From Promethearchaeota archaeon (GTDB taxonomy: Archaea; Asgardarchaeota; Lokiarchaeia; Sigyniarchaeales; SOKP01), in contig JAEOSD010000006.1 of NCBI GenBank assembly GCA_016840545.1, forward strand, positions 1 to 38,451: DNA of 38,451 nt. The letters run 5' to 3'. The translations under genes and the position numbers were made by a program. This document shows, piece by piece, positions 6,091 through 6,270 of the stretch (its first letter is position 1; each line of letters opens with the position of its first letter). The notes under the pieces were generated by a model. The model did no database searches. It was not told where the DNA came from and was given only the letters and a program-made list of their open reading frames with translations.

Positions 6091-6133
6091 TACAAATAAA
6101 TCATTTCAAAAGGTCTGGTAGTCTAGCTTGGAT

Positions 6134-6165
6134 TGCTATTTTAGTTTCAATAACATAGCATAAAT
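6134..6165 (+). other. tRNA intron in the D-loop (between positions 20a and 21)
   Basis: The D-loop would be 42 bases long without excision. Removing these 32 bases restores AGCTTGGATA, a normal 10-base D-loop. The insert folds as a hairpin, TGCTAT (6134-6139) with ATAGCA (6155-6160). The flanking bulge-helix-bulge is relaxed: TTGG (6128-6131) against ATAA (6160-6163) has one mismatch and one G-U pair. Exact ends are uncertain by a base because T-A flanks repeat. Confidence 0.6.
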
Positions 6166-6190
6166 AGGGCGCTGGCTTGCGGAGCCAGAT

Positions 6191-6216
6191 ATCTTGTATT
6201 AAATACTAGACTGGAA
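6191..6216 (+). other. tRNA intron in the variable loop with good bulge-helix-bulge
   Basis: CCAG (6185-6188, anticodon stem) can pair with CTGG (6211-6214), giving the 4-bp central helix. It is flanked by three-base bulges ATA (6189-6191) and AAA (6215-6217). The inner stem is TCTTGTAT (6192-6199) with ATACTAGA (6203-6210), seven of eight pairs, loop TAA. Symmetric cutting in the two bulges always removes 26 bases and leaves a 5-base variable loop, exactly the class I length. This is the form expected for archaeal tRNA splicing endonuclease. Confidence 0.75.
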
Positions 6217-6270
6217 ATCGAGGGTTCAAATCCCCCCCAGACCATTAAATTTTAAAACCCCATGAATTAT

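Follow-up and report, generated by a model that had tools for sequence, protein, structure and literature searches.

A tRNA-Arg(GCG) gene interrupted by two introns outside position 37/38 in a Lokiarchaeota-type archaeal genome

Positions 6112 to 6244 of the window (the whole 38,451-nt stretch of DNA analysed here) hold a tRNA gene interrupted twice, in neither case at position 37/38. Read from its sequence, this segment of the forward strand is a complete tRNA-Arg(GCG) gene of 133 nt containing two inserts, and a class I tRNA of 75 nt is obtained once both are removed. A first-pass annotation of the window had proposed this product, with anticodon GCG, and had placed both introns outside 37/38. 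The product is borne out by a match of 75/75 positions to a family covariance model and by intronless orthologs, and the introns were located at 20a/21 and 45/46. The gene is composed of the following parts:

6112 to 6244, forward strand: tRNA-Arg(GCG), exons and two introns (family covariance model R1, 61.1 bits)
6112 to 6133, forward strand: exon 1, with the acceptor 5' strand, the D-stem 5' strand and the D-loop to U20a, in agreement with intronless orthologs
6134 to 6165, forward strand: intron 1, 32 nt, in the D-loop at 20a/21; three equivalent registers, absent in orthologs L045 and L043
6166 to 6190, forward strand: exon 2, with A21, the D-stem 3' strand, the anticodon arm and positions 44-45
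6191 to 6216, forward strand: intron 2, 26 nt, in the variable loop at 45/46; four equivalent registers, site common to 9 other orthologous genes
6217 to 6244, forward strand: exon 3, with positions 46-48, the T-arm with A50.C64, the acceptor 3' strand and the discriminator A
6112 to 6118 and 6237 to 6243, forward strand: acceptor stem, GGTCTGG and CCAGACC
6121 to 6124 and 6167 to 6170, forward strand: D-stem
6172 to 6188, forward strand: anticodon arm, CTGGC-TTGCGGA-GCCAG (stem 6172 to 6176 and 6184 to 6188)
6179 to 6181, forward strand: anticodon GCG, within the 7-nt loop TTGCGGA closed by a 5-bp stem
6220 to 6236, forward strand: T-arm (stem 6220 to 6224 and 6232 to 6236)
6244, forward strand: discriminator A

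All stem pairs are standard (G.U counted) except A50.C64, a pair on which the first-pass annotation is silent, and CCA is not encoded at the 3' end. The analyses reported here confirmed that 6112-6244 is a real tRNA-Arg(GCG) gene with two introns outside 37/38.

The gene was overlooked by general tRNA searches. ARAGORN found no tRNA in the whole window, 6112-6244 included, and the Rfam tRNA model gave no match in the window at its gathering score; on 6112-6244 itself this model reached 17.8 bits, the cut-off being 29. Since ARAGORN (as run here) and Rfam both missed the window gene, such genomes may contain more tRNA genes than are counted in them. A covariance model, R1, was built from ten intronless relatives, and the cloverleaf of its alignment was paired in 97.1% of 210 cells. 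R1 matched the window gene over positions 1-75 of 75 with two local inserts (E 2.2e-15), and a search of the window with R1 at E up to 10 gave no second match besides 6112-6244. After splicing, the gene product shows the four-stem cloverleaf of archaeal tRNAs, with one A.C pair at 50:64.

This non-standard T-stem pair (window positions 6221 and 6235) was found in 21 of 36 tRNA-Arg(GCG) genes counted (locus L054 of G036 being left out), and the remaining genes have G-C, G-U or A-U. In the R1 cloverleaf count, 50:64 is the only pair with unpaired cells (6/10 sequences). A50.C64 could be tolerated, could tune elongation-factor binding, or could be repaired by C-to-U editing.

The inserts were then compared with the archaeal bulge-helix-bulge, a 4-bp helix with two 3-nt bulges at the junctions. 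Intron 2 shows the strict motif and intron 1 the relaxed form only, the elements being:

6128 to 6131, forward strand: TTGG, 5' strand of the intron 1 central helix, bulge at 6132-6134
6160 to 6163, forward strand: ATAA, 3' strand of the intron 1 central helix, bulge at 6164-6166; 3/4 pairs, one of them G.U
6185 to 6188, forward strand: CCAG, 5' strand of the intron 2 central helix, identical with the anticodon stem 3' strand, bulge at 6189-6191
6211 to 6214, forward strand: CTGG, 3' strand of the intron 2 central helix, bulge at 6215-6217

For intron 2, the 4-bp helix and two 3-nt bulges described in the first-pass annotation were found as stated, with 4/4 central pairs (CCAG/CTGG), bulges AT/A and AA/A (the slash marking the junction) and an inner helix TCT/AGA. 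Intron 1 had been described as a hairpin whose removal leaves a normal D-loop; it does fold as a hairpin, and it also forms a relaxed bulge-helix-bulge with 3/4 central pairs (G.U counted) and a 5-bp inner helix. Sliding of the junctions through the equivalent registers leaves the product unchanged, and the bulge-helix-bulge motif picks among those registers. When the insert letters were shuffled with the junction fixed (3000 shuffles), an equally good motif arose in 0.4% of cases for intron 1 and in 0.2% for intron 2; with the junction sliding by 6 (2000 shuffles), these values were 5.4% and 3.3%. Such single-gene statistics are modest, so the weight of the case is comparative, the strong evidence being the R1 match and the intronless orthologs.

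In order to compare orthologs, 79 genomes of the order were searched with the 5' half of the anticodon arm as pattern, and 39 places in 38 genomes were obtained. Two of these places (in G026 and G033) were not tRNAs by eye and were dropped, and the resulting set of 37 tRNA-Arg(GCG) genes (36 genomes), with that of the window among them, was aligned to an intronless ortholog with inserts of free length. The pattern gave a single tRNA match in 35 of the 36 genomes. Eight genes have no intron, 16 have one, 11 have two and two have three; 29 of the 37 are therefore interrupted, carrying 44 introns at five sites, and 13, including that of the window, hold two or three introns. A 3-nt acceptor-stem insert in the alignment of G036 was taken as an artefact and left out of the intron count. 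Outside the 37-gene count stand L040 and L041, both intronless and matched by another pattern only, and the GCG genes of G008, G009, G011, G022 (T-loop insert) and G012 (D-loop insert). Of the 24 genomes in the genus, at least 12 yielded a GCG gene on reading (28 loci read among the matches listed). Genome G072 has two copies (L116 and L118), one intronless and the other with a variable-loop intron.

The spliced product of the window gene differs from those of the intronless G056, G065, G071 and G072a at 5, 4, 4 and 3 of 75 bases, respectively, and from the other four intronless orthologs at 14-17 of 75; comparison with the first four indicated that exact removal of the inserts restores the mature tRNA. 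The letters around both junctions, in the D-loop and in the variable loop, are identical in the intronless G071 (L115), which is also the one of the eight intronless orthologs containing the D-loop stretch AGCTTGGATAGGGC. The five variable-loop bases that cutting was expected to leave are ATATC, also present in 4/8 intronless orthologs. Both introns occur in G016 as well, where all 133 nt are identical to the window gene while the 200-bp flanks show 8 and 17 differences. G021 contains the variable-loop intron only, and G019 a variable-loop intron and a T-loop intron; among orthologs the inserts vary in sequence, length and position, whereas the exons stay similar. A synteny search among genome contigs gave three loci: that of G016, the Lokiarchaeota locus L049, in which no tRNA was seen within the 300 bases inspected, and a match to a bacterial protein with 24% identity. 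As the introns of the 37-gene set come and go at five sites within one order, their gain and loss can be studied.

The five sites, in our own numbering, are distributed as follows:

17/17a: 4 introns, exon tetramer CTAG in 4/4
20a/21: 6 introns (that of G048 placed two bases off), exon tetramer TTGG in 4/6
Anticodon loop: 11 introns (10 at 37/38, that of G049 two bases on), exon tetramer TTGC in 9/11
45/46: 10 introns, exon tetramer CCAG in 10/10
58/59: 13 introns, exon tetramer GTTC in 13/13

With 3-nt bulges, G.U counted as a pair and the junction allowed to move by 6, a bulge-helix-bulge having 3/4 or more central pairs could be placed at or near the junction in 44/44 introns, the central helix having 4/4 pairs in 33 and 3/4 in 11; in the shuffle test with sliding junction, P was below 0.05 in 26/44. 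The exon half of the motif is the usual tRNA tetramer of its site in 40/44 introns. At 45/46 the central 4-bp helix is complete in 8/10 introns, and three of the six genes interrupted at the D-loop site have 4/4 central pairs, the motif of one being placed two bases off. Among the variable-loop introns, which are 26-37 nt long, the inner helix has at least 3 contiguous pairs in 7/10 genes, with differing letters; in G019, G021 and G074 it has 2 pairs, with more beyond a bulge by eye. Variable-loop and 37/38 introns, both of which involve the anticodon stem, occurred together in 0/37 genes where 3.0 were expected (uncorrected P 0.015). Mutual exclusion of the two is not claimed, ten site pairs having been compared uncorrected in genes that share ancestry.

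Patterns allowing up to one mismatch found a single tRNA-Arg(GCG) gene in the assembly (92.1% complete), and anticodon GCG was absent from all other tRNA genes read there; the intact second copy that the first-pass annotation had held could speak against its reading was thus not seen in the assembled part. The 17 open reading frames of the window use CGT 24 times and CGC 9 times, i.e. 33 codons among 6641. A census by eye of Rfam matches and T-arm pattern matches gave 32 distinct tRNA genes in this genome, 18 of them interrupted: 13 are intronless, 2 have an anticodon-loop intron only, 16, the window's included, have one or more inserts outside the anticodon loop, and one (Asn) has a T-arm that was not resolved by eye. 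The census is manual, and because multi-intron genes score poorly some are probably missing; C119:13544 and T-arm pattern matches without a surrounding tRNA were excluded, and two Val(CAC) places were entered as a single gene. These are two near-identical tRNA-Val(CAC) genes (L136 and L134) at two contig ends, both with inserts after the anticodon arm and in the T-loop, which differ in a few insert bases and are perhaps strain variants. Seven tRNA genes besides that of the window seem by eye to hold two or more inserts. The Arg(TCG) gene (L135) has a D-loop insert at the site matching that of the window gene; its counterpart has no insert in G018 and a T-loop insert instead in G002. The view that two introns in one tRNA are exceptional in this genome was rejected, other tRNA genes of the genome being interrupted too. 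The rarity that the first-pass annotation had ascribed to such a gene in an Asgard-like genome does not stand, in view of the 18/32 interrupted genes, of the 13/37 orthologs with two or three introns and of Asgard cases described in the available part of a published study (PMC11291895).

The assembly contains one splicing-endonuclease gene, coding for a catalytic subunit of 201 aa. Among solved structures it is closest to Aeropyrum pernix 3p1z_B (E 1.9e-36, aligned over 181 residues), and its loop GIAKPRLEYF aligns with DVEKPRGADF of 3p1z_B with Lys-Pro-Arg in register. Loop Lys-Pro is present in 28/28 catalytic subunits aligned (30 loci given), followed by Arg in 22/28 and by Lys or Asp in 6/28. 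According to the parts of the reports available, the loop lysine matters for broad specificity in Crenarchaea (PMC6379350, PMC12397907), and endonucleases with the broad-specificity loop cut relaxed motifs (PMC6379350). The catalytic subunit has the loop lysine that marks an (alpha-beta)2 broad-specificity endonuclease. This fits the earlier suggestion that splicing would call for an enzyme accepting relaxed motifs, and the catalytic subunit is most like that of A. pernix. The second subunit was not found in this incomplete assembly. Two endonuclease matches, one strong and one weaker, exceeded the cut-off in 34 of the 39 genomes examined (the window's being one of the 39); G000 and G001 had the strong match only, and G012, G036 and G037 the weaker only. 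In the weaker subunit of G019, Ser occupies the position of what we take to be the catalytic His of 1a79; by eye, His is missing from this position in all six weaker subunits read, as would be expected of a structural subunit. In this one sequence, from G019, the second subunit is closer to M. jannaschii 1a79 (E 1.8e-22) than to 3p1z_A (E 0.01), presumably the partner subunit of A. pernix. In the six relatives read (L152-L157) the second-subunit gene is adjoined by a gene which we assume to encode a PIN-domain-like nuclease. Two contig ends carry RtcB matches, which cover model positions 1-336 and 293-426 of 426, as would result from a single gene being split.

The gene anatomy, the mature product as given by comparison, the conservation of the motifs and the sequences of the catalytic subunit and of RtcB make us highly confident that 6112-6244 is a working tRNA-Arg(GCG) gene, whose precursor would carry two archaeal-type introns and be spliced by an endonuclease and an RNA ligase. 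The transcript would be cut at the bulges of the strict motif in the variable loop and of the relaxed one in the D-loop, by a tRNA splicing endonuclease that probably has two subunits, with the broad-specificity loop on the catalytic one. The second subunit, missing from the incomplete assembly, would be supplied in the cell as in most relatives, which have one. The ligase, for which RtcB is encoded, would join the exons into the normal 75-nt tRNA, and this would read CGU and CGC codons. That the window gene is instead a decayed pseudogene, its task falling to a further tRNA-Arg(GCG) that lies outside the assembled sequence, is highly improbable: the assembly is indeed short of complete and G072 does pair an intronless copy with an interrupted one, but the 133 nt shared with G016 include both introns while the flanks diverge, the stem pairs are standard apart from A50.C64, most orthologous genes (29/37) are interrupted and all but one of the 36 genomes gave a single tRNA match. 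The pseudogene reading was set aside on this conservation and ortholog evidence.

It is scarcely credible, too, that the inserts are retained in a tRNA whose D-loop and variable loop are enlarged. Such a D-loop would interfere with the contact between D-loop and T-loop; moreover, although the D-loop insert forms a hairpin, orthologs with similar exons have inserts of different sequence, length and position, and bulge-helix-bulge motifs can be placed at their junctions. An order of removal, in which the endonuclease takes out the variable-loop intron first and the D-loop intron leaves only after refolding of the RNA or by a less strict route, seems unlikely. It would suit the relaxed motif (3/4) of intron 1 and the minimum-energy fold of the whole precursor, which has no cloverleaf and in which the D-arm strand (6119-6126) pairs with intron 2, so that the D-arm may be able to form only once intron 2 has been removed. 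This fold is, however, one thermodynamic prediction for naked RNA, the D-loop site has complete central helices in 3/6 orthologous genes, and loop-bearing endonucleases are reported, in the part of PMC6379350 available, to cut relaxed motifs.

Beyond this gene, we advance tentatively, as a joint proposal short of probable, that one tRNA gene in Lokiarchaeia has been repeatedly interrupted and restored at five fixed sites, the place of each being dictated by a conserved tRNA tetramer that contributes the exon half of the bulge-helix-bulge (conserved letters serving as ready-made splice sites), and that the broad-specificity loop predates the split of Asgard archaea and Crenarchaea and is not peculiar to the latter. 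If this were true, versatile tRNA splicing would have been present in the ancestry of eukaryotes.

In the literature searched, including passages of PMC6125680, PMC8813620 and PMC8997704, neither tRNA introns of this sort in Lokiarchaeia nor an Asgard endonuclease with the broad-specificity loop was found described, and no claim of priority is made. The passages of PMC11291895 that name Lokiarchaeia do not address their tRNA introns, the word intron is absent from PMC9723677, and no paper from 2016 on combining the Crenarchaea-specific loop, Asgard archaea and tRNA was found in the literature searched. The window gene belongs to a known kind of archaeal tRNA intron and is not an oddity of one gene. 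As far as the available text of a 2024 study goes (PMC11291895), 92-95% of the tRNA genes in three genomes of Atabeyarchaeia and Freyarchaeia have introns, often at non-canonical positions, and over half have several. The present case is likewise one of an Asgard lineage with non-canonical positions and multiple introns; in contrast, it concerns a Lokiarchaeota-type genome with 18/32 tRNA genes interrupted by eye, and the comparison follows one orthologous gene through an order and takes in the endonuclease loop. The intron-rich tRNA state is thereby extended to a Lokiarchaeota-type Asgard lineage, beside an endonuclease with a broad-specificity loop. These relatives of eukaryotes differ widely in the sites at which their tRNA genes are interrupted, and what makes the case of interest is the lineage, together with the ortholog set. 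The catalytic subunit is like that of A. pernix (3p1z) with its Crenarchaea-specific loop, Lys-Pro-Arg being in register, whereas the second subunit in relatives, judged from the one sequence of G019, is closer to 1a79. Thermoproteales, as described in the part of a review available (PMC4033280), share with the window's genome introns outside 37/38 (up to three per tRNA in that order) and an endonuclease with a broad-specificity loop; unlike them, the present lineage is Asgard and not crenarchaeal, and intron transposition between tRNAs is a report from Thermoproteales.
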